Source of the DNA: a virus
IMG/VR virus record: IMGVR_UViG_3300044796_000662
Coordinates: 62,001-126,000 of that record
Length of the DNA stretch: 64,000 bases
Strand: one strand, 5' to 3'
Part shown: piece after piece, positions 8,657 to 47,890 of the stretch
How positions within the stretch are numbered: position 1 is the first letter of the stretch
Layout of the letters: every line of letters begins with the position of its first letter
Made by a program: the position numbers and the translations under genes
Notes under the pieces: generated by a model
What the model was told of the DNA's origin: nothing
Database searches by the model: none
What the model saw: only the letters and a program-made list of their open reading frames with translations

Positions 8657-9388
8657 TCAGGTGAGGAAACGAGCAGCGACACGCTCGGCGAGCCCAAGCG
8701 AAGCCGTTTTCGTTACGGCAGTTGACCCCTCGGTCGTGTAGGTGGATTCGAGCCCAGGATCGAGATAGTTGAAGCGAATCAAGTCCGCTTCCAGACCGAC
8801 CTCATCGGCCACCTTGTCGAGAGTCTTGAGGAACTCAGCGCGAAGCACCTTGGTACGAGCCCGGCGCTGCGTGGGAAGCGATTGCCCGGCCGACCGTGTT
8901 TCGTTCAGAGCCGAATGCATCCTGACGTTGGCGTTGTAGCCTCGGATGTCCTTCATCGAGAGCTTGTGCCGGCTCAAATAATCCCCGACCATCTCGGCCG
9001 TGACCCTGCCTGTGTCGTGGGCGAACAGCTCGTCGTTGTCGTCTTCTGTGGTCTCGAACGCCGTCTGAAGAGCCTGGATGATGGTCCGGTTCGCTATCGG
9101 CCGACGCTTGCCAGCGCTTCGGTAGGTCGCGGACCACTCTTCCTCCCCCAACTCGACGTTCTTCTTACGCCAACCCACGGGGTCCTCGTTGGTCTCCACC
9201 ATGAGGCCAACCGCCAAAGCCGTGAGGAACCTGTTCGGGTCTCCAGAACTCAAGTCGCGGCGGATGCGTCCCTGCATCGACTCGACCGCCGAACGAATGC
9301 GGCTCAAGCGTCGCGAGGTCGAGCGTGCCTTGCGCTCCTCGCTCATCATACCCTTGGCTTTCGCGCGTGCGAGAACGTTGAAGTTCAC
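8657..9388 (-). CDS. DNA topoisomerase IB-like protein, 243 aa
   Basis: Relaxes supercoils through a 3-prime phosphotyrosyl link. The catalytic-domain pattern of small bacterial/viral IB enzymes is present: FLTALAVGLMVETNEDPVG, a KKNVELG..YRSAGK strand, LFAHDTGRVTAEMV, and MKDIRGYNAN (145-154, with R149). The candidate nucleophile is Y208 in NYLDPGLESTY. It starts with GTG at 9388, overlapping the previous stop as GTGA; an ATG further upstream would run through the neighbouring gene. The last residues (GLAERVAARFLT) carry the RVAAR peptide found at the N-termini of other proteins here. Confidence 0.7.
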   Translation of the reverse strand: MNFNVLARAKAKGMMSEERKARSTSRRLSRIRSAVESMQGRIRRDLSSGDPNRFLTALAVGLMVETNEDPVGWRKKNVELGEEEWSATYRSAGKRRPIANRTIIQALQTAFETTEDDNDELFAHDTGRVTAEMVGDYLSRHKLSMKDIRGYNANVRMHSALNETRSAGQSLPTQRRARTKVLRAEFLKTLDKVADEVGLEADLIRFNYLDPGLESTYTTEGSTAVTKTASLGLAERVAARFLT

Positions 9389-11637
9389 GCTGTGGCCTCC
9401 TCGTCGGCGGGCGGCAAGCCCTCGGGAGCCTTGCCGGTCTTGATGACACTCAGGAGCCACTTCGAGGGCTCTTCCTTGAGGTGGCCAAGCACGAACGTTG
9501 TCAGCAACTCGGCGAACCATTCCATGTGGTTCTTGCGCGAGTAGGTCGTGGGGACCCAATCGTGGAGCTGCACTTCGTAGCGGTCGTCGGGCTTGCTGAT
9601 CTCTCCCTTCAGAGTCTCATAGACCTCGTGCCGTTCCTTCTCGACCTCTTTCAGCTCCCGCTCCTTCGCCTCGTCCTTCCCCACGTAAGTCAACGTGGAG
9701 GCAGACTCCGGCACGACAAGCGGGCCTGGCCCACGACGATACATCGAGCTGCGGAGGAGGTACTTCTCCGGCGCTTCGATGATCTCGATGAGGACGTCCC
9801 GGCCCTTCTTGCCGACGATCTTCCCCTTGATGTGGTACTGAACACCGTTTGACCAGGTGTCGTACTCGACCACGGTTCCCTTGCGTGGGAGCGGCCGGTG
9901 GATGTACTGCGTCTCTTCCAGTTCCTTGTAGCGCTTGTTGAGTACGTCGAGGCGCCGCTTCAGCACGTCTCGCGATCCCCCAGCTTGCGTGCGCTTCTGG
10001 CGCATGGCCCACATGAAGCGGGTCATGACCTCGACGTTGTTCTGGCCGCCCGGCACCACCTTGTCGTGGTAGTAGTGCGCCAGCTCGTGGATCAACGTGT
10101 GGAGGAAGCTTGCGTCCTCGTACGCCTTGGGTGCCACCTGGATCGCGGGTGGGCTCGAACCCATGTGGTACACGGCGGCTGCGTGCGAGCCGATGCCGCC
10201 ACCGTAGAGCGCCACAAGGATGTTGTCCTGAAGCGGCACCCCGGCGGCCTGGTACTTCTGCTCGGACTCCAGGAGTAGCTTGCCAACTTCTTCGAGGTGC
10301 TCGGCGTGCTGCTTGATGTAGCGCACCTTGAACCGACCGAACTGCTCCTCGTTGAACTGCACTGCCGCGTGCCGGTTCTTGAGGGCGTCGCGAAGGCTCT
10401 GGTCCGGGCCGATGCCGAGGTTGTTCCGAAGCGTGTTCGCCATCGAGTGGGCCTCGTTGTACGAGATCCCCATCTCCTGCATGATCTGACGGTCGCTCAT
10501 CCCTGACATGAACAGGTGGGCGAAGTCGTGGAGCTTCTTGTCGAAGGCCCCGCCACCCGTGCACTTGCAGCCGCCAGCGGTCTTGCCGGCCGCCTCGGCT
10601 TCCGCCTGTGCCTTGAGCGCGTTCTCCTTCACGTCTGCACGCCAGACCTTGTAGAGCCCGAAGACCTTGTTCTGCTTGCGGCCCTTGGGAATCGGCTCGA
10701 CTTCGATCGTGGGGTTGCCCCACTTGTCCGTACTGAAACCAACGATCTTGCCGCGCTTGTTCTTGTACTTGCCGTACAGAACGATGTCGCCCGGCTTGAA
10801 GTAGTTCGCGTACTTGAGTGCGACGCTGGCGGCGAGTCGGTCCATTCCCCCTTGCTCGTCGAAAAGTAGCTTAGCCTGCTCCATCCGGTCGTAGACGCCC
10901 TTGAGGATGGTCGCCTTGTTCTTCGGCGTCAGATGGTCCTCGATGACCTTCCACGTCGTGGACAGAAGCAGCGCGTAGTGCAGGAGTTTCTGATTGGGGT
11001 GGGGGTCCTTCTCGGCGCGCTCCCGTAGCATCACATGCATCTGGTCGCTCTTGCCGACGTTGTGGATCACCTCGTCGGCGATCTGCTGCATGAAGGCCCG
11101 GACCTCCGAGGGATCGTTGATGTATGGACCCCAGGCCGCCTCCCCCTTCTCCATGACTTCCTTGGGGGAGTAGGTCAGCCCTTTCATGTGATCCATCTCG
11201 GCGGCGTGCGTCGCCTCGTGGATCAGGAGTGAGTACAGGCCGTAGTTCAGGCACGTCTCAGCCCGGCACGAGTGAATGGGCTGGATGCGAAGAGGAGCCG
11301 TGAGGGACCCTTCTGTGTTCAGGTACTCGGCCGGAGTGAGCGCCCCGTTGATCTCCAGCTCGATCACCCCGGGACGTGTCCGGCCTCCGAGCACGGCAGC
11401 GTACTTGCCCTTAGCCTCACGAGCCGACACGTAAACGTCGTACCGAAGAGGGTAGCCTTTGACGGACTCGATCCGAAGCGGCTCTCCGCGGACGATCCCG
11501 TCCACATGCCCGATCGGCTCGTCTTGCTTCTGCCGGCGCAACCAGCGCACGATCTCCGGCACAAGCTGGCCTTCGACGAACTGCGCAATCGCGCCCTTGT
11601 CGAGCCAGATCGGTCGGGTAGCAGAGCGGTCCATCAT
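9385..11637 (-). CDS. Large protein with two HExxH metallopeptidase-like domains, 750 aa
   Basis: Residues 1-260 form a first domain with HEATH (140-144), clearly paralogous to the 242-aa protein at 26026: shared RPIxLDKG start, LIHExTHAAE, EVRAxMQQI and DHLTPxNKAxILKxVY. Residues 280-330 look like a small beta barrel (GDIVLYGKYKNKRGKIVGF). A Cys pair (CKC) and helices follow, then a second HELAH (517-521) in a different context. The C-terminal 200 residues are charged. Probably two zinc gluzincin-like units fused; whether it acts in the cell or in the virion is unknown. Confidence 0.8.
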   Translation of the reverse strand: MMDRSATRPIWLDKGAIAQFVEGQLVPEIVRWLRRQKQDEPIGHVDGIVRGEPLRIESVKGYPLRYDVYVSAREAKGKYAAVLGGRTRPGVIELEINGALTPAEYLNTEGSLTAPLRIQPIHSCRAETCLNYGLYSLLIHEATHAAEMDHMKGLTYSPKEVMEKGEAAWGPYINDPSEVRAFMQQIADEVIHNVGKSDQMHVMLRERAEKDPHPNQKLLHYALLLSTTWKVIEDHLTPKNKATILKGVYDRMEQAKLLFDEQGGMDRLAASVALKYANYFKPGDIVLYGKYKNKRGKIVGFSTDKWGNPTIEVEPIPKGRKQNKVFGLYKVWRADVKENALKAQAEAEAAGKTAGGCKCTGGGAFDKKLHDFAHLFMSGMSDRQIMQEMGISYNEAHSMANTLRNNLGIGPDQSLRDALKNRHAAVQFNEEQFGRFKVRYIKQHAEHLEEVGKLLLESEQKYQAAGVPLQDNILVALYGGGIGSHAAAVYHMGSSPPAIQVAPKAYEDASFLHTLIHELAHYYHDKVVPGGQNNVEVMTRFMWAMRQKRTQAGGSRDVLKRRLDVLNKRYKELEETQYIHRPLPRKGTVVEYDTWSNGVQYHIKGKIVGKKGRDVLIEIIEAPEKYLLRSSMYRRGPGPLVVPESASTLTYVGKDEAKERELKEVEKERHEVYETLKGEISKPDDRYEVQLHDWVPTTYSRKNHMEWFAELLTTFVLGHLKEEPSKWLLSVIKTGKAPEGLPPADEEATA

Positions 11638-12743
11638 CGTCTCCTGACCAGGATGCGGTCGCCCTGGCTGTTCATAAGGGCGATCTGATCGTCTGACAGA
11701 CGGTTGGGGTGCGTCGCGTAGAGCGTCACGGGTCCCTTTCGAAAGACGATCTTCACGCGAACCTCGCGGCCGCCCTTGTCCTGCCAGACATCGGCGACCG
11801 TGCCCTTCTCGCGCGCCCCGATGTCCAGGTCCCGGGAGCCTTTGAGCACTTCGATCGTGTCACGAGGCTTGAGTGCGAACTCGCCTCGGATCTTGTTCGG
11901 ATCGTCCTGGACCTCGAAGAGCTTCTCGTGCTTGCGCTTCTGTTGGAGGATCTGGAACGAGGTCGGGATGGGATTCGAGGGCCGAAGGTGGATCCCGATG
12001 CGTGCCGTCTCGATCGCATCGTCCTTGCTCGGAGCATCATCAACGATGACCTTACCGTCGTTCGTGAGCACCTTCCAGACGTTACCCTCCTCCGTGACCC
12101 GCACGTCCACGCCGAGGATAGAGCCCTGGAAGAGCTTGGGGTGCACCTCGCGCAAATCAATGTCCTTGACCGGACGTTTGGCGACGTACTCCTTGGCGTC
12201 CTCGATCGACATGGGCACCATCTTGTGATCCGGGTGCACCACAAAGAGGTCCACGTCATGTACCCCCACGGTCATCGAGCACCCAAGCCCGAAGTTGCAG
12301 ATGTTGGCGTCGATCACCGCAGGCTGCTTCTCGGGGCCGTTCGGGTCGAACTCCACCTTGGGGTCGAGATGGTGAAACGTGGTGCCGATCGCGTCGTACT
12401 TCGCGAGGAAGAGGTCGTCCCCGTAGCGGCCGCCCCGCAGCCGGTTGCCGACCTCGATGACCTCCGTAACGTTCTCGGCCCACGATGCTCCGTGAGCACG
12501 TTCAGCGGGAGTCGAGTAGGTGCCGCCCGTGATCTGGCCAGTCTTGAGGATGCGGACCAGCTCCTCCCCGTCGAAGATGCGGTAGAGGGTGAAGCTGGAA
12601 TCGAACTCGGCGACGATCTGGTTCGGCAGAGACGTGAACCGCTGGCGGATCTTGTTCGTCGCGTCACGGTCGATGAGGATGCGGACCGTGCGCGCGTAAC
12701 GCACTCGAAAGCGCGTCAGAACACGGGTAGTCAGCGCGTCCAT
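11634..12743 (-). CDS. Hypothetical protein, possibly ADP-ribosyltransferase-like N-terminal domain, 369 aa
   Basis: After a basic N-terminus (RVLTRFRVRYARTVR) comes LYRIFDGEELVRIL, then GGTYSTPAERAHGASWAE and a later FLAKYDAIG strand. An initial Y-R, a following S-T or S-x-S and an acidic patch recall ADP-ribosyltransferase folds, but no complete R-S-E or H-Y-E triad can be confirmed. The C-terminal third is beta-rich (IEVLKGSRDLDIGAREKGTVADV), like a KOW/SH3 barrel. Overlaps its neighbour by 4 bases. Confidence 0.75.
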   Translation of the reverse strand: MDALTTRVLTRFRVRYARTVRILIDRDATNKIRQRFTSLPNQIVAEFDSSFTLYRIFDGEELVRILKTGQITGGTYSTPAERAHGASWAENVTEVIEVGNRLRGGRYGDDLFLAKYDAIGTTFHHLDPKVEFDPNGPEKQPAVIDANICNFGLGCSMTVGVHDVDLFVVHPDHKMVPMSIEDAKEYVAKRPVKDIDLREVHPKLFQGSILGVDVRVTEEGNVWKVLTNDGKVIVDDAPSKDDAIETARIGIHLRPSNPIPTSFQILQQKRKHEKLFEVQDDPNKIRGEFALKPRDTIEVLKGSRDLDIGAREKGTVADVWQDKGGREVRVKIVFRKGPVTLYATHPNRLSDDQIALMNSQGDRILVRRR

Positions 12744-12746
12744 GCC

Positions 12747-13592
12747 CTACCGCCGGCATCGAAACAGAACCGCCCCAGGAGGGACGATGAGCTGTTCGAG
12801 CCAGCCGTAGAACCCGTTGATGTCCGCGAATTGAGGGAAGAATCTGGACGCGCCGCCGGCGTCGCCAGGGTCGGTCCCCCCGTCAGGCCCCACCCCCCAC
12901 CCCGTGATCCCGTCGCTCTGACGCCTCTTTGTAGGGGTCACGTTGCCCCGAGCCCGTAGTTCCCCGCTGAGGGCGTCCAGAGCGAGCCTGGGGCACCCTG
13001 GGACGCACGACCAGTCGTTGACGGTCTCCAACCCGTCCGCGTCGGCATAGCCCTCCCAGGCGCCTGTGCGGGTCGTCCGCGTGCCCTTCTGCGAGAACTG
13101 CGTCGAGCTACCCCCAGGACCGTTGGGGTAGCCCTTGTGGCCGGGGATGCGGGACTGTCCGGGGGTGCATTCGGGCGTGTGAACGATGGCTAGGTTGGTC
13201 GGCCATCGTCCTCCTGTATGGCTCTCCGTGTAATTCAAGTGCCCGTTTCCCCAAGCATCGTCACTATGGGGAAACGTTCCGCGAGGTCGCCCACGGTCCT
13301 CTGTGGTGGCAACTCGGCAGACGTCGATGTGGAGTCCCCCTGTACCCGTCGAGAGCACTTGCTCCGCCACCGTGGGAGCCTCCAGGGGCTTGCGAAAGAG
13401 CAACACAGGCTCAGCCCGCGGCCCAGGCAAGAGCACGAGCAGCGTGTCCCTCAGGTGCAGCCCCGCCTGCCTGGCATCCAGGGAGGCCATGGGGTTGTCA
13501 CCGAAGACGGCAACGAAGGCCCCAGGGGACAGCTCGTCGATGACCCCGAAAGCCGAGTCCCCGAAGAAGAGGAACGCAGCCCCGAAGGTCAC
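12747..13592 (-). CDS. Truncated or degenerate DNA methyltransferase-like protein, 281 aa
   Basis: Matches the C-terminal two thirds of site-specific N4/N6 DNA methylases: LRDTLLVLLPG, EPVLLFRKPLE, VAEQVLSTGTGGLHIDVCRV, GRWPTNL and a late SRFFPQ segment. The N-terminal part, which in intact enzymes holds the SAM-binding and catalytic DPPY motifs, is missing; the protein starts at the strand equivalent to the late-core GAFVAVFGD. It overlaps the DHH gene upstream by 4 bases, so no hidden N-terminal piece remains. Either a decayed gene or a non-catalytic DNA-recognition subunit. Confidence 0.75.
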   Translation of the reverse strand: MTFGAAFLFFGDSAFGVIDELSPGAFVAVFGDNPMASLDARQAGLHLRDTLLVLLPGPRAEPVLLFRKPLEAPTVAEQVLSTGTGGLHIDVCRVATTEDRGRPRGTFPHSDDAWGNGHLNYTESHTGGRWPTNLAIVHTPECTPGQSRIPGHKGYPNGPGGSSTQFSQKGTRTTRTGAWEGYADADGLETVNDWSCVPGCPRLALDALSGELRARGNVTPTKRRQSDGITGWGVGPDGGTDPGDAGGASRFFPQFADINGFYGWLEQLIVPPGAVLFRCRR

Positions 13593-14596
13593 TGCGCCGA
13601 CTCGTACCAGAGCACGAGCTGCTCGACCATCTTGTATGGGTTGAGGTCGTGCGGAACGACCGCACGATTGAACCCCGCGGCCCTCGTGTGGCCCCCACCA
13701 CCGTTGCTCTTCGCGAACGCGAGGCAGTCGAAGTCCGTGTGGCTGCGCGTCGAGAGGAGCATCTTGGGCGTGCCGTTCTCGACGATGTACGAGAAGCCGA
13801 TGATGAGGTCCGCCTCAGTGCCGAGCGCCTCAGCCGCGTCGCTCGTTGTCTTGAGGCCGTCGAACGTGACGACCTTCGTACCCTTGGCGCTCGTAAACCT
13901 GTAGGCGGACTCGATCGTCTTCTGGACCGACTTCTCCATGCGCTCGATGAGGAGTCGGCCGATAGCCCTGCGTTCCTCCCAGATGGGGACCATCGCCGAC
14001 GAGAAGGGGCTTCCGATGCTCAGCCAGTGCTCGACGGGGTAGAAGCGGAGCATCTCGGCCTGCGCACAGGCATCCCTCCACCACGGGTGTGTATTGAGCC
14101 AGGTGTCACGCACGCCCGCGAGGGTGGCAAACTCCTCGGCCCTCTTCTGCTCTTCGATGGCCACCGTGTCCGTGGCGTCCTCCACCGGATTTACCAGGCG
14201 CCACACGTGACGGAATGCGAGGACGGCGCCGCAGACACCCGGCTCGGTCTTCTCGTTGCCGAAGTGCCCTCGCTTGGGGCCGAAGGCTTCCACGACGTCC
14301 TGCACGCCCTTGTGGTGGTCGAGCACGAGGGTGCCGGCATCGATCCACGGCTTGAGGGCGTCGAGATCGTTCTTCAACACCCCATCGACGGTCTTGGTCG
14401 GCACGTACGGCACGAAGTCGCAGAAGAGGTAGCCGGGCTCTGGCACGAGAGCCTTGAGCGCGTCCGTGTTGTGCTGCATGAACCGGATCTCTGCCTGGGG
14501 CAGAGAGTCATGGAGCAGGATCGCGCTGGCCACCCCGTCCGGACAGTTGTCGTGGACAACGATGGTCTTGACCTGTGCAAGCTCGTGAACGTACAT
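13589..14596 (-). CDS. DHH-family phosphoesterase, 335 aa
   Basis: RecJ/nanoRNase-type fold. Motif I HDNCPDG (15-21), motif III DHH (93-95) in LVLDHHKG, and the DHHA1 signature GGGGH (299-303) followed by TRAAGF. Such enzymes degrade short single-stranded DNA or RNA, or dephosphorylate nucleotides. It lacks RecJ's extra OB domain, so an oligonucleotidase is more likely. A CCGGTGTAGGGG element lies 6 bases before its ATG, marking it as the first gene of a transcription unit. Confidence 0.9.
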   Translation of the reverse strand: MYVHELAQVKTIVVHDNCPDGVASAILLHDSLPQAEIRFMQHNTDALKALVPEPGYLFCDFVPYVPTKTVDGVLKNDLDALKPWIDAGTLVLDHHKGVQDVVEAFGPKRGHFGNEKTEPGVCGAVLAFRHVWRLVNPVEDATDTVAIEEQKRAEEFATLAGVRDTWLNTHPWWRDACAQAEMLRFYPVEHWLSIGSPFSSAMVPIWEERRAIGRLLIERMEKSVQKTIESAYRFTSAKGTKVVTFDGLKTTSDAAEALGTEADLIIGFSYIVENGTPKMLLSTRSHTDFDCLAFAKSNGGGGHTRAAGFNRAVVPHDLNPYKMVEQLVLWYESAQ

Positions 14597-14602
14597 GCCG
14601 CA

Positions 14603-14614
14603 CCCCTACACCGG
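14603..14614 (-). promoter_or_regulatory. CCGGTGTAGGGG element before the DHH gene
   Basis: Read on the minus strand: CCGGTGTAGGGG, 6 bases before ATG. This family has twelve members in the window (plus: 3107, 4435, 32653; minus: here, 21195, 24678, 28068, 32638, 36987, 37694, 44695, 46500), each 4-26 bases before a start codon. Consensus C-CGGTGTA-(A/T)-GGG(G). Two copies follow terminator-like hairpins, which favours a promoter (a -10-only phage type); the G-run could double as ribosome-binding site. No conserved -35 is seen. Confidence 0.6.
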
Positions 14615-14632
14615 GGCGCTATGCATGAGTCG

Positions 14633-15010
14633 CTAGAAGAGGTGCCGGTTCGTCCCAGCCTTCTTGTTGGCGGCGATGAGGAGGTCGCAGAGGGTCTTGG
14701 CGATTTGCGAGTCGGCGGTGTGGACCGGCACGACCTTGTCCTCGTACTCGTCCTTCTCGCGGTGGATCGCGATAGCGCCGAGCGAGATCGTCCCGTCGCC
14801 ACCCACACTGACCGTGCACATGCAGTAGTCACTGGACGGTACGTCCTTGAACGAGAGATTCATCTGCGCTTCGAGGCGGTCGTCCCCGACGTCCTCCATG
14901 TTCCAATCCTTGACGTTGGGGAACGCCTGCTTGACGTGCGTGAAGGTGCCCTCGAAGAGCGACGAGGCCCATGTGTCGAACGCGGCGTGAAGGGAATTTG
15001 CCTTGGCCAT
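14633..15010 (-). CDS. Hypothetical protein, 125 aa
   Basis: Start MAKANSLHAAFD chosen because residues further upstream in this frame are antisense to the zinc-ribbon gene. Mixed alpha/beta protein with a DYCMCTVSVGGDG strand and a helical C-terminus (IAKTLCDLLIAANKK). No family recognised. Confidence 0.75.
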   Translation of the reverse strand: MAKANSLHAAFDTWASSLFEGTFTHVKQAFPNVKDWNMEDVGDDRLEAQMNLSFKDVPSSDYCMCTVSVGGDGTISLGAIAIHREKDEYEDKVVPVHTADSQIAKTLCDLLIAANKKAGTNRHLF

Positions 15011-15015
15011 GTGGG

Positions 15016-17431: not shown

Positions 17432-17437
17432 GTAGCT

Positions 17438-24698: not shown

Positions 24699-25607
24699 TC
24701 ATTCAGCCTCGGCAGCGGCCTCCAAAGCCTCCTGGACCGTCTCGGGCTCCAGTTCCTTCAGCTCCTTGGCGACAGCGGCCGCGATCAACATCTGGAAGAC
24801 CTCATCCGGATCCACGTGATCCGACTTCTGGTCCTGCGTCGCGATTCGCTCCATCAGCTCGGAGAACAGCTCAATCGAGTGGTGCCCGATGTGAGCGATC
24901 TCCTCGAACGTCGGTAGGTGCTCCAGACGCTTGACCACGGCTTTGATGGCGATCTTCTTGGCCGTGCTCGAAATGAACGAGCCCATGACGCCCTTGGCCA
25001 GGAGACCCGCTCCGGCGCCGATCCCCGCCCCGAGCGCCCCTGCGGCCGTAGCGATGGCAACGTGAGTCGCCACCTTGCGGAACGCCGCCTTCTGGTGCTT
25101 GGACATCGGCTTGCCCTTCATCCAAGCGCTGACACCCTGCCCGGCCTCCTTGAACTCGTGGACCTCTTCCTTGGCGGCGTCCCAGGCGTTCTTGACGAAC
25201 TTGGTGGGCGCTTCCGTGATGGACTTGTGCGCCGACATGAGGGTCTTGAAGCGGAACTCCTCGTCGTGGACGAACTTCTGGACCTTCTCGGGGGCCGACG
25301 CCAAGAAGGACTTGGCCTTCGAGGACAGGCCCTTCATGACGTCCTTCCAAGACGACTTGGGCTTCTTGTCCTTGTGCTCGTCCTTGTGCTCGTGCTCGTG
25401 CTCGTGCTCGTCCTTGGCCTCACCCTCCGGCTTCTTCTCGTGCTCGCCCGGCTTCTTGACCGTGTGCTTGCTCTTGTCCGCGTCGGGGTGGTCGTGGAGG
25501 TACTTCTTCAGCGCCTCAGGCGAAGAGAACTCGAACGCTCGCTGGTATCGCGCGGCCACCCGCAGCGACAACCCCAGCTCGATTGCCCAACGCCCCGACG
25601 CGTTCAT
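24699..25607 (-). CDS. RVAAR-tagged protein with membrane-like segment, 302 aa
   Basis: Start MNASGRWAIELGLS chosen; earlier codons overlap the neighbour. Starts with LSLRVAARYQRAF. Then EALKKYLHDHPDAD, a Glu/His/Lys repeat tract (EHEHEHEHKDEHKDK), a basic helical domain (LSSKAKSFLASAPEKVQKFV), and a Gly/Ala hydrophobic segment (TAAGALGAGIGAGAGLLAKG) that could insert in or cross a membrane. Acidic end. Probably a virion or ejected internal protein, by analogy with large phages; not proven. Confidence 0.8.
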   Translation of the reverse strand: MNASGRWAIELGLSLRVAARYQRAFEFSSPEALKKYLHDHPDADKSKHTVKKPGEHEKKPEGEAKDEHEHEHEHKDEHKDKKPKSSWKDVMKGLSSKAKSFLASAPEKVQKFVHDEEFRFKTLMSAHKSITEAPTKFVKNAWDAAKEEVHEFKEAGQGVSAWMKGKPMSKHQKAAFRKVATHVAIATAAGALGAGIGAGAGLLAKGVMGSFISSTAKKIAIKAVVKRLEHLPTFEEIAHIGHHSIELFSELMERIATQDQKSDHVDPDEVFQMLIAAAVAKELKELEPETVQEALEAAAEAE

Positions 25608-25996
25608 CGGCGGTAGGTCTTGGCGAAGTGGCTGGACATCGGCTTCCCGTTCTCTTCCGCCGGCATGGGCGTGTCCGTGGGGATGATGTTGTCCATTCCT
25701 TCCTTCTTGCCGCCGGGCGTGTCGCCCTTGTTCTTCATGGACCAGGCCAGAGCCCAAGGGTTGTCGATCTCGTCATGCTTCTTCATCTTCTTGACGGTGT
25801 TCTCCCAACCGGGGGGCGCCACCGCGACCTGATCCATCTCGCCAGCCATGGGGGTCGGCCGAGAGATCGAAGCCTCTTCGTCGGCCTCCATCTCGGCATC
25901 GACGTACTCCGCCAGGTGCTCTTCGAGCAGGGGATTCTGCGCCTTCTTTTCCAGGAAACGCGCTGCTACACGTGCCGAAAGGGCCAGCTTGCTCAT
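25604..25996 (-). CDS. RVAAR-tagged small protein, 130 aa
   Basis: MSKLALSARVAARFLEKK, an acidic linker, then a compact motif PPGWENTVKKMKKHDEIDNP followed by WALAWSMKNKG, which I associate with an uncharacterised phage family, and a basic end (SSHFAKTYRR). Overlaps its downstream neighbour by 4 bases. Confidence 0.8.
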   Translation of the reverse strand: MSKLALSARVAARFLEKKAQNPLLEEHLAEYVDAEMEADEEASISRPTPMAGEMDQVAVAPPGWENTVKKMKKHDEIDNPWALAWSMKNKGDTPGGKKEGMDNIIPTDTPMPAEENGKPMSSHFAKTYRR

Positions 25997-26016: not shown

Positions 26017-26029
26017 ATAGAAGGACTAG
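26017..26029 (-). repeat. 13-base repeat ATAGAAGGACTAG, copy 2
   Basis: Identical to 18503-18515, and again lies between a stop codon and the next minus-strand start. Confidence 0.4.
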
Positions 26030-26754
26030 ACAAGCCCGTCCTCATCCAGCGCGCGGTAAACGGCCTTGAGGATGAGTGCCTTGTTCTGGGGCGTCAGGTG
26101 GTCCCGGATCTGGCGCCACTTGGGGAGCATGTCCAACACCTTGTTGACGAACTCCTGGGGAGAGGCGTGCGGCATCACGCGCTTGCGGTAGCCGGGGGCG
26201 ATGTTCCGCAGGTTGTCCACGATTTGCTGCATGTACGCGCGGACCTCGTGGGGCGAGTTGTAGTACCTGTCCGCGCTCTCCGGATCGGAGAGCACTGCAC
26301 TCTCCTGGACCAGGTCCTTGTGCGAGTGGTACCACCACTCGGCAGCATGCGTGAGTTCGTGGATCAGGTCGTTGAAGATGAGGTTCGACAGCGTGTGCGT
26401 GTCCACGTAATCGCCGTAGGTCTTGCTTCCGTTCAGACGGATCACAAGGTGTAGGTCCCCATCTTCGAGCAGGTCTGCCCTACGGATGTACGCGCCCGTG
26501 ATGAGCTGGTCGCTTTGGGAAGGCTCCGACGAGAAGGCGCCGTCGATGCGCATATCGTCCCCCCGCACGGACTTGATCTTCCAGGACCATGCGAGAACCT
26601 GAGAGTCGTGCCCAAGCTGCATGTCCTGCGGCTGGCGGCGGCAGTGGTCCTCAACCTTCTTGCCCAGCTCCTCGGCGAGCTGACGGATCTCACCCTTGTC
26701 CAGGGGGATCGGCCGGGTCGCGTACCGTGCGGCTACACGTAGGGTGAGCGTCAC
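26026..26754 (-). CDS. RVAAR-tagged metallopeptidase-like protein (HELTH), 242 aa
   Basis: MTLTLRVAARYATRPIPLDKG, then mixed alpha/beta sequence, HELTH (132-136) in LIHELTHAAEW, and HEVRAYMQQIVD and DHLTPQNKALILKAVY blocks that are shared with the N-terminal domain of the 750-aa protein at 9385. Clearly a paralogue. Third metal ligand is not obvious from sequence alone; peptidase activity inferred. Confidence 0.82.
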   Translation of the reverse strand: MTLTLRVAARYATRPIPLDKGEIRQLAEELGKKVEDHCRRQPQDMQLGHDSQVLAWSWKIKSVRGDDMRIDGAFSSEPSQSDQLITGAYIRRADLLEDGDLHLVIRLNGSKTYGDYVDTHTLSNLIFNDLIHELTHAAEWWYHSHKDLVQESAVLSDPESADRYYNSPHEVRAYMQQIVDNLRNIAPGYRKRVMPHASPQEFVNKVLDMLPKWRQIRDHLTPQNKALILKAVYRALDEDGLV

Positions 26755-28080: not shown

Positions 28081-28665
28081 CTAGCAGTCTACCAGCACCC
28101 CATCCGTCAGAAACGCGTGGTAGCCGGGGTACTTACCGCGAGCGGGGATGAGGATGCTCGGCCGTACGGTGATCTTGGGGATCGTGCCGGTACGCGTCCA
28201 AGGCGTGCCATCCGAGGAGGACAGGTCCGGCATCCACTGACCGCCTGGGGTCATGATGCATAGGCACTTGCCATCCGGACCTCGATGGTCCATCGGGAAC
28301 CAAGGACAGTCCCACATTGCGCCCACGGGAGCGTCACGCAAGGTGATCTCCTCTTCGACGCCAGGGCGGTGATAGAGCACTTCCGGGAAGACCTGCCAGT
28401 GGTCCTCTTCCACGAAGACGTAGTCGCAGTCGTCGCACTTCTGCGGCCAGCGCGGATCGTCATGGGCGGGCATGGCATCTTCAGGGAACGGGGCCAAGGT
28501 ACCGTGCTCCGAGAAGACTGCTTGAACGGTGCCAAAGGGCGCATGTCCGTTGTGGTAGCCGAATCGACCGGGGCACTTGTCCTTGTCGTCAGAGCCTCTG
28601 TATCGCCGAAGCTGCTCACGGACGAAGCCCGTTTGCTCGATGAGAAAGCACTCGATCTGACTCAC
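28081..28665 (-). CDS. Hypothetical Cys/Trp-rich protein, 194 aa
   Basis: Contains CDDCDYVF, an MWDCPWFP segment, a C-rich turn (GKCLCIMTPGG), TVRPSILI and an aromatic YHAFLTDGVLVDC end. The order PSI..HxFxTDG resembles small phage proteins of the DUF6527 type, low certainty. Stop lies directly next to the clpX promoter element. Confidence 0.75.
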   Translation of the reverse strand: MSQIECFLIEQTGFVREQLRRYRGSDDKDKCPGRFGYHNGHAPFGTVQAVFSEHGTLAPFPEDAMPAHDDPRWPQKCDDCDYVFVEEDHWQVFPEVLYHRPGVEEEITLRDAPVGAMWDCPWFPMDHRGPDGKCLCIMTPGGQWMPDLSSSDGTPWTRTGTIPKITVRPSILIPARGKYPGYHAFLTDGVLVDC

Positions 28666-28961
28666 GACTCTTCTCCCCCCTCAGGGACCATCCCACGAAC
28701 CTTGATCTCGGCGGCGAGTTGCTTCTTCACCGCTTCGACCTGCTCGGGAACCATCACCGTCTTCGCGAGGTGACGTGCCCTGTAGTCTTCGCCGTCAGCA
28801 AGCGCACGAAAGTACGCCTTGGCGATGATGCTCTCGAAGGAGTTGTCAGGGAGCTTCGCTACGAGCCTTGCCGCCGCATCGCGCACCTCTGGCCCGCTCA
28901 AGATGACGAGCTTCTCGGCGATCCTGTTGAGGACGCGCTCTGCGGTGCTGGACGTCTTCAC
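28662..28961 (-). CDS. Hypothetical helical protein, 99 aa
   Basis: MKTSSTAERVLNRIAEKL is a distant variant of the RVAAR-type N-terminus. The rest is helical and charged. Overlaps the nitrilase gene's end by 4 bases. Confidence 0.75.
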   Translation of the reverse strand: MKTSSTAERVLNRIAEKLVILSGPEVRDAAARLVAKLPDNSFESIIAKAYFRALADGEDYRARHLAKTVMVPEQVEAVKKQLAAEIKVRGMVPEGGEES

Positions 28962-41270: not shown

Positions 41271-41700
41271 CGTGCTCCTCCTGAACCAGGACCACGTACA
41301 CCCCTTCGCGCCAGCTCTTAACGATCTCTGACATCAATCGTCGCACTTCTGGGTCTTCCGACCCATCCGGCTCGTAGCACCACGGCATACGCTTGGCCGT
41401 TGGGAAACACCGGGCCTTATCGTAGAAAGGGCAGCGGTCGCGCAGTGTACATACACGCGCACTCTCAGGCAGCTTGATGAGGGCGCCCTGAGGTGGGAGC
41501 CCCAGCGACTTGACGAGTGGGCTCGTCCAACCGCGCAGAGCATGCTCGATCGTGTCCTTGGGAACGGTGGTGAGCAGGCTTGCGATCTCGTTACCCTGAA
41601 GAGGGCGCCAGTTCTGCTCCCAGACGCCCCCCTCATCGTAGATGAGGTACAGCTCCAGGAACCCCATCTCGGTTGTCGAGACCCTCAGTCGCCTGGACAC
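41245..41700 (-). CDS. Hypothetical Cys-containing protein, 151 aa
   Basis: Beta-type start, a helical middle, then a Cys group (CTLRDRCPFYDKARCFP..PWCYE) that could bind iron-sulfur or zinc. Overlaps both neighbours (26 and 16 bases), so firmly in the replication operon. Confidence 0.8.
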   Translation of the reverse strand: MSRRLRVSTTEMGFLELYLIYDEGGVWEQNWRPLQGNEIASLLTTVPKDTIEHALRGWTSPLVKSLGLPPQGALIKLPESARVCTLRDRCPFYDKARCFPTAKRMPWCYEPDGSEDPEVRRLMSEIVKSWREGVYVVLVQEEHDAQRDRRH

Positions 41701-42329
41701 GACCGCACTACCTCGCCGATCTTGTCGAGCACCTGGCGAAGCACGACCTTCGCCTTCTCGTAGTCGATTTTGCGCTCATCGAGTCGATGACGTAGCCGGT
41801 CGAGAATGACCCCGAGCTTGAGGAATGGCACCATCTCGAAGTTGTGCTTCGCGCTCCGTAGCCGTTTCTCGCACGCCTCGAACAGAGTGGCGACTTCCAG
41901 AACGAGCGGGTCCTCCTCCGGCTCGTAGTCCCCGGACACGCCTTCCGGCATGGGAGGAGGCACGATGCCGTAGGCAGACTCGATGTCACGCAAGACCGCG
42001 GCGAACTTGAGGTCTTCGCGGCCATCGAACTTCTTCCAAAGTCCGATGGCGTCCCAGTTCTTCTGACAGACGAAGCACCAGACGTGACTCGGGCTGCGCG
42101 CCGATGCCTCGTAGACGCGAGCGGACGGCTTCGTGTCCCGACCATGGAAGGGGCAGGAGATCTGCTCCTCACGGCCGCCGTACTTGAGCCGGATGCCGTT
42201 GCGTGTGAGCACGTCGTGCGCCGTGACCGTCTGGTGGATGGTCGCCACCCGCTCGGCAATCCACTGACGCCAGACGTCATGACGCTCGTTACGCCGGATG
42301 TTCTGATCGAAGACGTTAGCCACGGTCAC
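41685..42329 (-). CDS. Primase zinc-finger (CHC2) protein, 214 aa
   Basis: Resembles the DnaG zinc-binding domain: SCPFHGRDTKPS (C59, H62) then VWCFVCQKNWDAIGL (C85, C88). No TOPRIM or polymerase domain follows; the C-terminal half is helical. Either a stand-alone template-recognition subunit with the catalytic part elsewhere, or a helicase-associated adaptor. Confidence 0.88.
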   Translation of the reverse strand: MTVANVFDQNIRRNERHDVWRQWIAERVATIHQTVTAHDVLTRNGIRLKYGGREEQISCPFHGRDTKPSARVYEASARSPSHVWCFVCQKNWDAIGLWKKFDGREDLKFAAVLRDIESAYGIVPPPMPEGVSGDYEPEEDPLVLEVATLFEACEKRLRSAKHNFEMVPFLKLGVILDRLRHRLDERKIDYEKAKVVLRQVLDKIGEVVRSCPGD

Positions 42330-43798
42330 ACGTTGTTGAGAAGGTCGGTTTCGTCCTGCACGCCCATGCCCGGAGCCGAGTTGTAGAGGTCGAGGTTACG
42401 CATGCGCCGGCAGGTGAAGTCCACCTCGGCGAGGAACGGCTCGAAGAGCGGGTTGTCCCGGTTCTTGAGGCACGAGAACTTCGTCTGCCCCTGTGCACGC
42501 AGTTCCTGGCTGAGATAGGTAGCCGTGACCACGTCTGCGGAGCGCTCGGCCTCGTTCGAGTACGAGAGCGCTTGCAAGTTCTTGTAGATGCCGTCGTTCT
42601 TCTCCGCCTCGGTCTTGCCGGTACGGTTGATCTGGAAGAGCAGGAGCGTCGGCATCCCCTCGCCGTGGTTGAAGTGCAAGGCGAACTTCTTGGCGTCGCG
42701 GAGGATGGTGTTCAGCTCGATCGTGTAGTCCTTCTTGCTGCGGTTCTTCTTGCGGGCTTCCATGAGGCCACCGTGGTCCAGAACCGTGAACCCGATCTCG
42801 GATTGCTTGTGAAGCAGCTCCACTTCGATCCGCGCTTCGTCGAAGTCCACGTCGTGGTCGGGAGCCCACGTGTGGAACTCGCAGTAGTCCGGGTTGTGCG
42901 TGAAGTCGTCGATGACCTTCTGGTAGAAGATCTCTTCCTCGGGCGTGAGGTCCCCGTCGCGCACCTTGCGGTAATCGAGTGCCTTGTAGCCCTCCAACGC
43001 CCAACGAGGGTGCGAGGAGTGCATGACGTAGATGAGCCGGCGGATGTGCTCGTAGCCCATCTCGAACGTCGCATACATGACGTTCGTGCGGTAGCGAGTG
43101 ACCAGGTTGTAGCACCAGTTGGTTGCGAAGGTGCTCTTCAACTCCCCGGCGAACGCCGCGTGGATGTGCAGCTCCTTCTTCTTCAAGCCGTGACAGATGG
43201 TGTCGATCCGGTCGATGCCCGTGAAGCGGCCCCAGACCTTGTCCTTGTTCAGCTTCGCTGTCAGGTACTCGTCCCAGACCTCTTGACCATCCTTGCGGAT
43301 GTCACCCCTTTGGCGTGACCCGCCTTCGAGGACGATCAGGTCGTTGGCCTTGCTGACGAAGTGCATGATGCCGTCTTGCACTCCGCGGCGCTGGATCTCC
43401 TCCCGACCCTCCTTGATGGTCAGGCCCTTCGTGACAATCTGATGGGCCTCCTTGAGAAGCTCCGTCACCTTGCGCTGATTCTGCTGCTCGATGAGAGTCT
43501 TGAGCAGGTGCGCGAAGTTGGTACGGATGTAGAACTGCGCTGCCTCGATGTCCTTGAGGCGCTCGGTAACTTCCGTGTCCTTCTCGAAGTAGTCCCGGAC
43601 CGTCTCGATGGACGGCATCTCCATGTTCGGCTGGAAGTACGACCCGAGGAACTTGTAGATCGCCGTGTCCTCTGGCAGCTCCCACTCCAGGGGTGACTCC
43701 CGGATGCGCTGGAAGTTGAGCAGGAGGTTGTCCTGCGTGAGACCACGTTCTTGCGAGGTCGCGCCGAAGTCGATAACGGAGCGGAGCAGGCGCTTCAT
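42326..43798 (-). CDS. DnaB-like replicative helicase, 490 aa
   Basis: N-terminal helical domain (1-160), then RecA fold: FTGIDRIDTICHGLKKKELHIHA leading to AGELKST (217-223) at the Walker A position, where Gly before Lys is Leu; MYATFEMGYEHIRRLIYVMHS; a VLDHGGL Walker B strand; a late LLLFQINRTG sensor-like strand. Spacing fits DnaB. The altered P-loop seems a feature of one phage subfamily; ATPase activity should be treated as likely, not certain. Confidence 0.85.
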   Translation of the reverse strand: MKRLLRSVIDFGATSQERGLTQDNLLLNFQRIRESPLEWELPEDTAIYKFLGSYFQPNMEMPSIETVRDYFEKDTEVTERLKDIEAAQFYIRTNFAHLLKTLIEQQNQRKVTELLKEAHQIVTKGLTIKEGREEIQRRGVQDGIMHFVSKANDLIVLEGGSRQRGDIRKDGQEVWDEYLTAKLNKDKVWGRFTGIDRIDTICHGLKKKELHIHAAFAGELKSTFATNWCYNLVTRYRTNVMYATFEMGYEHIRRLIYVMHSSHPRWALEGYKALDYRKVRDGDLTPEEEIFYQKVIDDFTHNPDYCEFHTWAPDHDVDFDEARIEVELLHKQSEIGFTVLDHGGLMEARKKNRSKKDYTIELNTILRDAKKFALHFNHGEGMPTLLLFQINRTGKTEAEKNDGIYKNLQALSYSNEAERSADVVTATYLSQELRAQGQTKFSCLKNRDNPLFEPFLAEVDFTCRRMRNLDLYNSAPGMGVQDETDLLNNV

Positions 43799-44688
43799 CG
43801 TGAACCCCTCTTGCTCTTGAACTTGAACTTCTTGGGCGCTTTGGGCGCATCCAGGTCCGCGAGGTCAGGTCGGCCGAGGTCATCTCCCCCGGACGCTGGC
43901 TCCGGATCTGGATCGGACGATGGTTCCCACTCCTCGACGCTCAGAGCCGCATCCGGGGGTGCAGAGACAAGGACGTTCTGCGGTCCAGAGTAGACGTACG
44001 GCGCAGGCCGGTCATCTTGCTCCTCGGAGGGCGTCGAGGTGCTGGGCACATCGAGCACTTCGAAGTGCGAGAAGATGTAGTCGGCGACATCCTCGCTGTA
44101 CGAGTGATGGCCGACAACGAATGGGTAGTCTGCCTTGTCCACGATCCACGTCGCCTTGTGGGCGACTTCGCGAAGCATGAGTGCTTCCTTCAACGCGCCG
44201 GCCATCGCGACGTTCTTGTGGCCCAGATACCCGAGAAGAAGAATCACGAGGTCGTGGTCGCAGACCAGATCTGAGAGCGAGTTGTACGACTTGGTCGTCT
44301 CACGCTCTTCCTTCGGCTTGACCCGTGCCGACTCGTTGCCGACGAACACATTCTTGATCCTCTCGTCGGTGACGATGAGAAAGCGGAACATCAACCCCTT
44401 GCAGATGAGCGCGTAACGGAAGTGAGCGATCATGTCGCTCCACCGGCCGCGCAAGAAGAGGTTGTCCGCAGTCTTGTCATCGAGCGGCGGATCATCTGGG
44501 ACTGGCCCACGCACGAACAGCGGCGAGGACTGGATCTTCCTGGCGCGAGCGATCTCCGGCCCCAAGTGCTGCCGCATCATCCGGCGCCGTGCGCAACTGC
44601 ACAGGCGACTGTGCATGTCGTCCACACGGATCTTCCCTCGCCCGTTGCAAATCTCGCAGACTGTCTCTCGCTCGATAGGGGGCGCCAT
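43795..44688 (-). CDS. Helicase-loader-like protein with zinc finger, 297 aa
   Basis: Cys pairs CEIC (11, 14) and CSC (30, 32) form an N-terminal finger, then a RecA/DnaC-like core (FRFLIVTDERIKNVF, DLVILLLGYLGHKNVAMAG, KATWIVDKADYPF). A Walker A P-loop is not evident, so it may be a non-hydrolysing or inactive relative of DnaC. C-terminus: Pro/Asp-rich linker with a basic tip (PKKFKFKSKRG). Its place directly before the helicase supports a loading role. Confidence 0.65.
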   Translation of the reverse strand: MAPPIERETVCEICNGRGKIRVDDMHSRLCSCARRRMMRQHLGPEIARARKIQSSPLFVRGPVPDDPPLDDKTADNLFLRGRWSDMIAHFRYALICKGLMFRFLIVTDERIKNVFVGNESARVKPKEERETTKSYNSLSDLVCDHDLVILLLGYLGHKNVAMAGALKEALMLREVAHKATWIVDKADYPFVVGHHSYSEDVADYIFSHFEVLDVPSTSTPSEEQDDRPAPYVYSGPQNVLVSAPPDAALSVEEWEPSSDPDPEPASGGDDLGRPDLADLDAPKAPKKFKFKSKRGSR

Positions 44689-44694
44689 CGGGAA

Positions 44695-44705
44695 CCCCTA
44701 CACCG
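44695..44705 (-). promoter_or_regulatory. CGGTGTAGGGG element
   Basis: 6 bases before the ATG at 44688, between the loader-like gene and the SNF2 gene. Confidence 0.58.
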
Positions 44706-44713
44706 AACGGACG

Positions 44714-46492
44714 TCAGGTAGCGCGCATTCGGCCGAGCAAATCCTTCGCCGAAGACTTCTCCTTCTCGAACGAAAGTGCCCCCAGCGCGGCCTCTCCGAG
44801 CACTGTATCTACGAGGTTCTTCTTGCCATGGAGAAGCTCAAGCACATGGTGATCGATGGTCTTCTTCTCCTTGGCGGTCTTGCCGGGACGCACTGCCACG
44901 ATGTGGTAGACCATGACCGTCGAGTGGATTGACCCGATGCGTACGGGCCTGCCGAGAAGCTGCACATAGTTGCCGTAGGACCAGGGCGCGTCCATGAAGA
45001 CCATGGCGCTCGCTGCCTGAAGGTTGATCGCTTCCGAGCCGGCGTCCGTGATGAAGACCACCTTCGTGTCGGAGGCCAGGTCTTGAAAGCGCTTCTGCGC
45101 CTCCTGGCGGGCCTTGTCGTTCTCCTTGCCCGTGATTCGAACGCTCTTGATCTTCAGCTTGTTGAGTACCTCGACGAGCCGGGTCACGTACTTCTCGAAG
45201 CGCGTGTAGATGATGACCTTCTCGTCCTCCAGCTCCGTCGTCAGAAGCTCGACCAGGGCCTCTTCCTTGGCGCTCTGCTCGTTGACCTTGTCAGGGTTCT
45301 CGTCGAGAGCGAACTCGGACACCTCGTCGCCCGCCTTGAACTTGAGCAGGGCGAGCGAGTTGACGATCTCCTGGCAGTAGATGAGCGAGGCCATCGCCTT
45401 CGCCTCGGAGTAGTCCTTGACCTCCCCGTCGCCGAGCATGAGCACGCCCGAGAGAGCCTCACCGTACTTCGTGTCCTCCGCAGGAGACAGCTCGCAGACG
45501 ATCTCTTTCGTGATGAGCTTCGGCAGCTCGTTGGAGACCATGTGCTTGGCCCGGCCGATGAAGAACGGGTCGATCTTGTTCCGGAACTCCGCCAGGCGGC
45601 GATAGCCAACGACGATGGGGATCTTTCGACCCCCTGGGACGGACTGAAGCTTGACGACGCAGTATTCGTCCATGAACGCCGACTTCGTACCGAAGAGCGG
45701 CGGCTGGATGACCTTGAAGATGGAGAACCCCTCCATGAGGTTGTTCTTCAACAGCGTCGCGGTCAGGCCGTAACAACGACTCGCCCTGTCGGACAGGTAG
45801 CGGCACACCTGCCAGCGCTTGGTCCCCGTGTTCTTGAAAGCCGTGGCCTCGTCGTAAATGATGCAAAGACCCTTCATGTCCGCCGTGATGCGGTCGAAGA
45901 GCCCCGCCGCGACCGGGGCCTTGGGGTCCGGCTTGCCGTTCGGCAGCGTGGGCTTGAACGATCCGGAGTCCCAATCGCGCACGAGGATCGAGTAATTGAC
46001 GAGCAGGACCACCTTCTCGGCGTCCGGGCCAGTGGGAGCGTTGCGGAACTCCTCGTAGGCGCGGATCCTCTCCTCGGGCTTGCCGGCGGCAACGATGGGT
46101 CGGATGCCTGTCGTGAACCGCTTGATCTCCCCGGCCCACTGCCACAGGGCGCTCTTCGGGGTCACAACGATGACCTTGTTGTCCGGCTCCTTGGGCCAGA
46201 GGTAGGCCAGAGCCGCGAGCACCTGGATGGTCTTGCCGAGCCCAGTACCATCTCCCAGGATCAGCCGCTTCATCGCGAGCAGGTGGTAGATGCCGATGTA
46301 CTGGTAGTAGCGGAGCTTGAACGGGATGATGGCCCCGTCCTTCTCGATCTCCGTCCGCAGAAGCGGTGTAGGCTTCAACGTGAGGGTCGTGGACTTGCGG
46401 ACCTCAAGCAAGTGCTCATAGGTCTTCCGAAGCTTCTCCAGCCCCGCCCTCTCTTCGGCAGTCGGTTCCCGGGTCTTCTTCTTGGCTGCCAT
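44714..46492 (-). CDS. SNF2/DEAD-like helicase, 592 aa
   Basis: SF2 ATPase: Walker A LGDGTGLGKT (79-88), IVVTPKSALWQW (Ia), Walker B CIIYDEATAF (DEAT instead of DEAH), GLTATL (III), and in the C-terminal lobe IIYTRFEKYV, FITDAGSEAINLQAAS (V) and LLGRPVRIGS (VI). Such phage proteins resemble T4 UvsW-type enzymes, for recombination or stalled-fork rescue. C-terminal tail basic. Confidence 0.92.
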   Translation of the reverse strand: MAAKKKTREPTAEERAGLEKLRKTYEHLLEVRKSTTLTLKPTPLLRTEIEKDGAIIPFKLRYYQYIGIYHLLAMKRLILGDGTGLGKTIQVLAALAYLWPKEPDNKVIVVTPKSALWQWAGEIKRFTTGIRPIVAAGKPEERIRAYEEFRNAPTGPDAEKVVLLVNYSILVRDWDSGSFKPTLPNGKPDPKAPVAAGLFDRITADMKGLCIIYDEATAFKNTGTKRWQVCRYLSDRASRCYGLTATLLKNNLMEGFSIFKVIQPPLFGTKSAFMDEYCVVKLQSVPGGRKIPIVVGYRRLAEFRNKIDPFFIGRAKHMVSNELPKLITKEIVCELSPAEDTKYGEALSGVLMLGDGEVKDYSEAKAMASLIYCQEIVNSLALLKFKAGDEVSEFALDENPDKVNEQSAKEEALVELLTTELEDEKVIIYTRFEKYVTRLVEVLNKLKIKSVRITGKENDKARQEAQKRFQDLASDTKVVFITDAGSEAINLQAASAMVFMDAPWSYGNYVQLLGRPVRIGSIHSTVMVYHIVAVRPGKTAKEKKTIDHHVLELLHGKKNLVDTVLGEAALGALSFEKEKSSAKDLLGRMRAT

Positions 46493-46499
46493 CGCCCCG

Positions 46500-46511
46500 C
46501 CCCTACACCGG
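46500..46511 (-). promoter_or_regulatory. CCGGTGTAGGGG element
   Basis: 7 bases before the ATG at 46492. Confidence 0.58.
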
Positions 46512-46531
46512 GCGCTGGGGCTCCTGGGCGC

Positions 46532-47890
46532 TTAGCTCAGGATGGGCAGAAGCAGATCTAGCTGTTCCTTCGGGAGCTTACCGATGGCGTAGAACGAGAC
46601 CATCTCGGCGAAGTTCTCGCCGGGGCCGCCCTTCTTGGCGTAGCCCGTGATGAAGTCCAGCGGGTCCACCTTCTGCTCAACACCGTTGAGCTTGAAGAAC
46701 ATGGCCGCCGGCATGACGATCGTCTCCCTGCGGGCGATGGGGAACTTGTGCTCCTCATCGGGCTCGTGCTCAGCCCGGCCCTTCTCTGCGCAGACGAAGC
46801 ACCGCAGAGGGTTGGCCGGGGCGAGCTTCACGGAGCGGCGACGGGTATCGCGCTCGATGACCTTCCAAGGCTCCCCCTTATAGGGGACTGACGCGCCAAA
46901 CGCGGGCAGCTCGGTTTCCGACATGAAGCCCGTGTGCGTGTTGATCGTGGAGTAGAGCTGCGAGATCTCGTGCTCTTTGCCTTGCAGGAACTTGTGCTCC
47001 AGCCGGTGCGTCAGCTCGTGACAGAGAACCCGGACGGTGTCCATGTTCACCTTCGAGTCGGCACGAATGAACATCTCGTCCTTGGCGACGACGTAGAACG
47101 CCGCCCAGTTGGGCCGCTCGATGCGGTTGGACAGGATGATGTCCCCGTAGTTGACCTTCCCCAAGCCGATGCCTGCCATCTTTTGAGCGGCCTCTTCGGC
47201 GAGCTTGGCGATGTTCTGCATCTGCTCCGTGCTGAAGCCGCCCGAGTTGACGAGCGTGAAAGGCCCGGCCTTGAACCGCGTTGCGCCCTCTCCCTCGCCT
47301 GCGTGCTGCTTGCCCTGGCTGATCGCGATCTCGAAGACCTTCTCCTGCTTGCGGAAGTCTTCGAGGAAGTCGAGGTAGATCTGGACAGCCTTGGCTCGCG
47401 CCTCTTCGTAGGTGCGGCCCCGTGTGCTGAAGCGCGGCGTACGGGCGTAGAACTTCGCGATAGCCTCAATCGCTTTGCGAGGCTTCGGCGGCAGCACAAG
47501 CTGTTGCAGGATGGCCCAGCACAGGTTCTGCGCGACGTCCTGGATCTTGCCCCATCCGTGCTGCATCGAGTGAGTGGTGATCTCGTACGACAGGTCGCGC
47601 TCTTTGCGACGCTTGCCGTCCTGGGACTCTTCGATGGTCTGGACCAGCGCGTTCTCACGGACGGCCTTGATCTTCTCGGCGGGGGCGCCTTCGGCCTGTA
47701 GCTTCGTGACCTCGGCGAATGCCTCCACGTACTTCTTGGCCATCGCCTCCTTCTCGGCGTACTTGGCCACGGCCCTCTTGAACTGCGCAAGCAGATCCCC
47801 GGGGTCGCCGAAAGAGTCGGCCCGCTTCGAACGTTCGGCGACCCGCGAGGCGAGGACGACGCGCTCTACAACTCGATCCAAGGACTTCAT
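46532..47890 (-). CDS. HELTH metallopeptidase-like protein with RVA-type N-terminus, 452 aa
   Basis: Start MKSLDRVVERVVLASRVAER holds a variant of the RVAAR peptide. A long helical region (30-200) precedes HELTH (291-295) in VRVLCHELTHRLEH. Further motifs: CFVCAEKGRAEHEPD and a C-terminal IGKLP helix. Not an obvious paralogue of the 9385/26026 pair outside the HExxH. Catalysis inferred. Confidence 0.82.
   Translation of the reverse strand: MKSLDRVVERVVLASRVAERSKRADSFGDPGDLLAQFKRAVAKYAEKEAMAKKYVEAFAEVTKLQAEGAPAEKIKAVRENALVQTIEESQDGKRRKERDLSYEITTHSMQHGWGKIQDVAQNLCWAILQQLVLPPKPRKAIEAIAKFYARTPRFSTRGRTYEEARAKAVQIYLDFLEDFRKQEKVFEIAISQGKQHAGEGEGATRFKAGPFTLVNSGGFSTEQMQNIAKLAEEAAQKMAGIGLGKVNYGDIILSNRIERPNWAAFYVVAKDEMFIRADSKVNMDTVRVLCHELTHRLEHKFLQGKEHEISQLYSTINTHTGFMSETELPAFGASVPYKGEPWKVIERDTRRRSVKLAPANPLRCFVCAEKGRAEHEPDEEHKFPIARRETIVMPAAMFFKLNGVEQKVDPLDFITGYAKKGGPGENFAEMVSFYAIGKLPKEQLDLLLPILS

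Follow-up and report, generated by a model that had tools for sequence, protein, structure and literature searches.

A portable RVAARF/Y peptide at the ends of unrelated megaphage proteins is a probable virion-cargo targeting tag

A short peptide with the core RVAARF or RVAARY recurs on unrelated proteins encoded in a 64,000-nt stretch of virus DNA (the window; bases 62001-126000 of the 362,937-base virus contig IMGVR_UViG_3300044796_000662, whose phage we call the source phage). We found it on 88 proteins in seven megaphage genomes and consider it, with a probability of about 0.7, to be a portable virion-cargo targeting tag that acts like the capsid-targeting sequence (CTS) of phage T4, without claiming kinship between the two. 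Genes of the source contig (g numbers) and of its relatives were called with a purpose-made, simple codon-usage caller. Seven related or comparison genomes, whose contigs may be incomplete, were gene-called in the same way from stretches of sequence: A, 407 kb; B, 312 kb; C, 182 kb, a fragment; D, 251 kb; E, 529 kb; F, 417 kb; and H, 162 kb, a distant one. Tunturi_5, a cultured Acidobacteriota phage, served as the outgroup.

The seven peptides quoted in a preliminary description of the window were all found in the sequence, and a genome-wide motif search confirmed the tag and showed it to be wider than first stated. The 14-residue consensus, approximately [MD][SP][LI][AS]xRVAAR[YF][LA]x[AR], was taken from a position-specific scoring matrix (PSSM) built on strong copies. 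At 17 bits or more, the PSSM matched 96 times in the seven genomes, whereas reversed proteins gave 1 match and shuffled proteins 0.2, a comparison that is partly circular because of PSSM training. Genomes E and F were therefore kept out of training, and at 12 bits these held-out genomes gave 26 matches against 1.5 in the control and 15 against 1.25, respectively. Three PSSM-positive proteins (g103, g126 and C_124) are probably false positives. The simpler pattern [RK]V[AV]xR[FYW] occurred 14 times in the source phage, where 0.6 were expected, and 11, 13 and 6 times in three relatives, where the expectation was 0.1 each. At the DNA level, a degenerate core pattern matched 85 times in 20 contigs, against 20 matches with a reversed-pattern control. 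LRVAARY/F was also re-found by an unbiased comparison of protein ends, made without prior knowledge of the motif. A literature search found no published match to the peptide.

The tag is concentrated at protein ends. N-terminal copies accounted for 72 of the 96 matches, with 12 C-terminal and 12 internal, while uniform placement would give 15% at the N-end and 8% at the C-end; the N-terminal tags start mostly at residues 1-5. The 11 copies in the source phage have 11 different DNA spellings, and synonymous agreement among them (0.31) is no higher than that predicted from codon usage (0.36). These results indicate that the signal acts at the peptide level, and a DNA repeat or mobile element was rejected as its source. 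The peptide has the pattern of a cationic amphipathic helix, in which hydrophobic (L..V..F) and basic (R..R..R) residues each recur at every fourth position (moment 0.54 vs 0.38 shuffled; mean net charge +2.1).

Within one enzyme family the tag changes ends. Among type IB topoisomerase orthologs, it is C-terminal in g109 and A_014, N-terminal in A_104 and D_023, and present at both ends in B_194. In an AlphaFold2 model of B_194, both tags were lower-confidence helices outside a well-folded core, and this core matched topoisomerase IB structures. The preliminary description had read the peptide as a sorting tag and had named common ancestry of one N-terminal domain as what would overturn that reading. 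Such an origin was rejected, since tags are also found on unrelated folds at C-termini and at internal junctions, and the sorting-tag reading was strongly supported by the unrelated folds, the use of both termini and the end-to-end exchange.

The carriers differ in kind from other proteins of these genomes. An HExxH motif was present in 16 of 88 carriers vs 52 of 2410 non-carriers (p 5e-10, an optimistic value because orthologs are counted more than once; the 16 include at least one non-peptidase, g136, with a histidine-rich linker). Pfam searches on carriers returned Topoisom_I, ART-PolyVal (E 2.4e-9), a DRAT-like ADP-ribosyltransferase (ART), 2H phosphoesterase/LigT/Acb1, HAD_SAK, DnaJ and zincins, together with weaker matches to zeta toxin, GNAT and M78. 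Length-matched non-carriers gave AAA, DnaB, RecA, ABC transporter, RNase HII and similar families, with replication enzymes prevailing. A few carriers are likely false, e.g. C_124, probably the source of a thymidylate synthase match. With zincin peptidases, ART and other effector domains, the carriers match the domain repertoire of polyvalent proteins, and from their predicted domains the identifiable ones resemble the 'polyvalent' effectors that enter with phage DNA.

In relatives, tagged enzymes appear as domains of proteins of 1,000-2,250 residues, and the tag often sits where two domains meet; the topoisomerase open reading frame frequently encodes such a giant protein, with homologs of proteins that are separately tagged in the source phage. 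L146 runs from a g160-like domain through the tag, topoisomerase and a g069-like domain into the beginning of the head-operon protein g270/A_160; the order in L141 is a g110/B_405-like domain, a g160-like domain, tag, topoisomerase and the g270/A_160 start; and in L121 a B_405-like domain, topoisomerase and the g270/A_160 start. The topoisomerase is likewise joined to g270/A_160 in L132, L134, L149 and L154. Other combinations are topoisomerase with g138 and g085 (L130), g138 fused to topoisomerase (L161), and topoisomerase, A_006 and a g160-like domain with three RVAAR tags (L143), A_006 being a peptidase that bears a second tag type, YDRR. A g160-homologous domain adjoins the topoisomerase in L126, L141, L143 and L146. 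In LR745208, a HAD domain and a topoisomerase meet exactly at the tag (RNVAAKYQ), in a gene between the protease and the portal; the homologous HAD protein of genome E, E_248, stands alone with a C-terminal tag. Several disparate domains on one polypeptide were found in L121, L130, L141 and L146 and partly in g110 of the source phage, whose carriers are mostly single-module.

Gene position also leads to the head. The head operon of the source phage lies at ~214-236 kb of its contig, outside the window; its major head protein is g262 (PHROG E 2.5e-51), its maturation protease g265, its portal g271 and its terminase g277. Operon order in relatives was judged from loci sampled for the topoisomerase comparison, and portal, protease, terminase or other head-operon genes lay within 3 kb in 27 of these 63 loci. 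Typically the order is portal, topoisomerase or polyprotein, g268/g269 and protease, which is the slot of g270 in the source phage; L155 reads portal-topoisomerase-g268-protease. Among main-branch topoisomerases, a tag of at least 15 bits was present in 16 of 26 counted as lying outside the head operon, since no head gene was seen in the surrounding 3 kb, vs 3 of 17 inside it (Fisher p 0.005, a test that takes no account of phylogeny). This fits a tag that stands in for head-operon linkage after a cargo gene relocates. The g279 family, whose genes lie between the terminase and the head genes, was tagged in seven of seven genomes, most weakly in D.

From the fusions, the gene order and the types of enzyme we infer a role in packaging. 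Capsid packaging was one of the candidate roles in the preliminary description, and it is the preferred one, since in relatives these enzymes are fused to a head-operon protein in genes that lie between the portal and the maturation protease; targeting to a compartment, another of those candidates, found no support. As a virion-cargo tag, the peptide, placed at either free end of a stand-alone protein or where modules are fused, would during head assembly bind a putative receptor within the prohead, in the inner core, the scaffold or the portal-protease region. The tag-bearing enzymes would thereby be enclosed in the head and later be ejected with the DNA, and once delivered could act as first-minute counter-defence and takeover enzymes. 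Proteolytic processing may run alongside packaging, the maturation protease being a candidate for clipping the tag or splitting modules at junctions. Several points weigh against packaging. The tagged phages are uncultured, and their nearest cultured relative found, Tunturi_5, lacks the tag. The receptor is putative, and a cationic amphipathic helix could also bind membrane or DNA. Many carriers have no recognisable domain, several head-operon topoisomerases carry no tag, so that it is not always needed there, and re-counting of orthologs makes the p-values optimistic. A search for a cultured or chromosomal relative bearing the tag yielded none, and a search of Tunturi_5 and of a distant topoisomerase branch (G020) did not find it.

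Tags at the domain junctions of giant proteins would also be expected if the motif were chiefly a recognition or cleavage site of the maturation protease, which parts virion polyprotein modules and trims ends while the cargo enters by other means. Sites of the form [KR][TVMS]A[AS] number 1.83 per 1000 residues in head-operon proteins vs 0.53, some of them being tags themselves; the N-terminus of the major head protein has one such site, IKTAAGR, conserved in eight of eight genomes; and KTA[AS] often precedes C-terminal tags (g109, A_014 and B_263). But many small stand-alone proteins have a single tag within 15 residues of their start or end, where cutting would release nothing else, and the best-conserved tag positions (R, V, A, R, Y/F) are unlike KTA[AS], at which cleavage is itself putative. 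We regard a mainly proteolytic role as unlikely. The helix pattern described above would suit a signal that directs proteins during infection to an intracellular site, a replication compartment or membrane, rather than to the virion, and some large phages do sort proteins into a nucleus-like compartment (PMC11087766). The recognisable carriers, however, are host-directed or DNA-entry enzymes and not replication proteins, and the fusions and operon position point to the head. PF00562 (multisubunit RNA polymerase beta, typical of nucleus-forming phages) had no match in the 363-kb contig, which may be incomplete, while the same search was positive in 14 of 14 control genomes; this too speaks against an intracellular site, chimallin itself not having been searched for, and we judge such a destination quite improbable. 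Since the same enzymes are joined as polyproteins in relatives, the motif might instead be what is left of a junction in an ancestral polyprotein, passively retained and without function today. Yet the peptide persists on small independent genes despite randomised DNA spelling, it occurs on families not seen fused, and the same enzyme is tagged at different ends; together these features call for selection and make a functionless remnant highly improbable.

The T4 CTS on Alt and the internal proteins provides a precedent for a virion-cargo tag (PMC9026906, PMC5694885). It is likewise a short terminal peptide common to several unrelated internal proteins (IPI-III, Alt) that are ejected into the host; for IPIII, its first ten residues are enough to have it packaged, and Alt carries a propeptide at each end (PMC9026906). 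RVAARF/Y differs in its consensus (compared without alignment), in its occurrence at domain junctions and in its far larger number of cargo families. CTS carriers are internal to the head; for RVAARF/Y carriers, packaging is predicted from gene fusions and from gene position beside portal and protease, and removal of the tag is putative. The polyvalent proteins described from phages and conjugative elements, and predicted to enter the host early in infection (Iyer et al. 2017, PMC5512222), share the catalytic repertoire, with zincin-like peptidases commonest, ART, GNAT and others, and multi-domain architectures. In the source phage, by contrast, the domains are mostly separate genes linked by a common tag and not a single polypeptide, and no comparable tag was found in the passages that a term search of PMC5512222 retrieved. 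The Dar antirestriction system of P1 likewise has multiple head-internal defence proteins that are co-injected with DNA, and the DarA N-terminus is cut by the head protease; Dar packaging differs in its ordered protein-protein assembly, with no common terminal tag described in the sections seen (PMC12810830). Ejection proteins of SPN3US and phiKZ have long N-terminal propeptides, whose terminal sequence was proposed to target the prohead; those of SPN3US are mostly over 100 residues and processed, and the portions of PMC5694885 consulted describe no shared 14-residue motif among them.

If the packaging role is true, the 14-residue pattern lists candidate head-delivered proteins of uncultured giant phages straight from sequence and offers a route to new counter-defence and takeover enzymes. 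The tag would then also form an evolutionary bridge from giant polyvalent proteins to dispersed single effectors, replacing covalent linkage to a head protein, and such tags could serve to load chosen proteins into phage heads.

The RVAARF/Y-tagged genes listed here from the window all lie on the minus strand. The type IB topoisomerase-like g109 (243 aa; 8657..9388; Pfam Topoisom_I E 1.9e-5) ends in the tag ...KTASLGLAERVAARFLT, with its RVAARF core at 8666-8683. The adjacent g110 (9385..11634) has two zincin-like domains, recognised in the sequence by HEATH and HELAH, and a degenerate, internal tag-like stretch, MDRLAASVALKYANYF, at their junction. The N-terminal domain of g110 lacks the tag but is paralogous to the tagged g138 (BLAST 31%, E 1e-25), and g110 also matches the tagged A_015/B_405 by BLAST. 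The N-terminal tag of g111 (369 aa; 11634..12743), MDALTTRVLTRFRVR, lies at 12699-12740 (PSSM 17.7 bits) and was modelled as a detached, low-confidence helix. Its 63% ortholog A_016 is tagged MDRIEFRVLSRW and has a second, internally tagged module added. Assignment of g111 as an ADP-ribosyltransferase was not supported, the model being weak and Foldseek giving no significant match.

Three neighbouring genes carry strong N-terminal tags. In g136 (302 aa; 24699..25607), the tag is at 25536-25577 and its RVAARY core at 25545-25562 (PSSM 26.6); the protein has a glycine-zipper-like hydrophobic segment and a tagged ortholog, A_032. An N-terminal block is common to g136 and g081, in which the tag is followed directly by FEFSSPEALKKYLHDHPDADKSKHTVKK and then by a charged linker. 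The small g137 (130 aa; 25604..25996) bears MSKLALSARVAARFLEK, core RVAARF at 25955-25972 (PSSM 25.3), and its homolog A_033 is also tagged. The zincin-like g138 (242 aa; 26026..26754; HELTHAAEWW) bears MTLTLRVAARYATR, core RVAARY at 26722-26739 (PSSM 28.2), and its ortholog A_034 is tagged too.

The preliminary description had listed weak variants in g111, g141 and g160; all three are real, and their orthologs in the 407-kb relative A are closer to canonical. In g141 (99 aa; 28662..28961), the divergent N-terminal tag STAERVLNRIAEK lies at 28911-28952 (PSSM 18.7), and the 72% ortholog A_036 bears the canonical MSIADRVAARVAER. The zincin-like g160 (452 aa; 46532..47890; HELTHRLEHKF) has the N-terminal tag VVLASRVAERSKRA at 47819-47860 (PSSM 17.0), placed ~11 residues in and not at the first residue. 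Its 49% ortholog A_056 has two tandem tags, with the more canonical MDVSLRVAERYQLAIRVAER.

Other terminal peptides were seen beside RVAARF/Y. The YDRR tag, YxYDRR(T/K)xA, is N-terminal in g163 (49574..50032, minus strand; MSYTYDRRKVA), g164 (window 50029-50343), g333, g341, g344 and g380 of the source phage and in relatives A, C and F, and occasionally C-terminal (g219, A_103 and C_123). It never occurs on one protein with RVAARF in the seven genomes. In L136, L138 and L143 the topoisomerase is joined to A_006, a zincin-like peptidase that the YDRR tag also marks. A C-terminal tag is found on many unrelated proteins of the source phage (g015, g049, g059, g063, g066 and g074) and of genomes A, B, C, E and F; its wording is uniform per phage and differs among phages (TAWRRLMGDDEY in the source phage, KSVWEHLLEDE in A, AYDKLMDEDLF in B, PTLWERL in C and LWDHL in F, where LWDHL ends give 304 similar pairs). 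This pattern suggests a motif that co-evolves with a single receptor in each phage. In genome F (G008), eight proteins further carry NPRKAFEE at the N-terminus and two carry DHLRWKT(A/G), and RWKxAA also occurs in g337 and g390. We suggest, tentatively and as a somewhat doubtful extension, a multi-address code of mutually exclusive terminal peptides, each of which would send its own protein set to a different receptor or place; its tags would be RVAARF/Y, N-terminal YxYDRRTA, RWKTA and NPRKAFEE, and the C-terminal acidic [LV]W[DE][HR]L / AWxRLMxDDEY. The IKTAAGR of the major head protein, a candidate maturation cleavage site, lies at residues 17-24 in the eight genomes (~35-41 in E_443) and reads LKSAAGR in Tunturi_5. 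Two pairs of neighbouring genes end alike, g303 and g304 in DFT(E/D)L(L/F)DN(V/L), and g103 and g104 in LFDLAMSGELDD.
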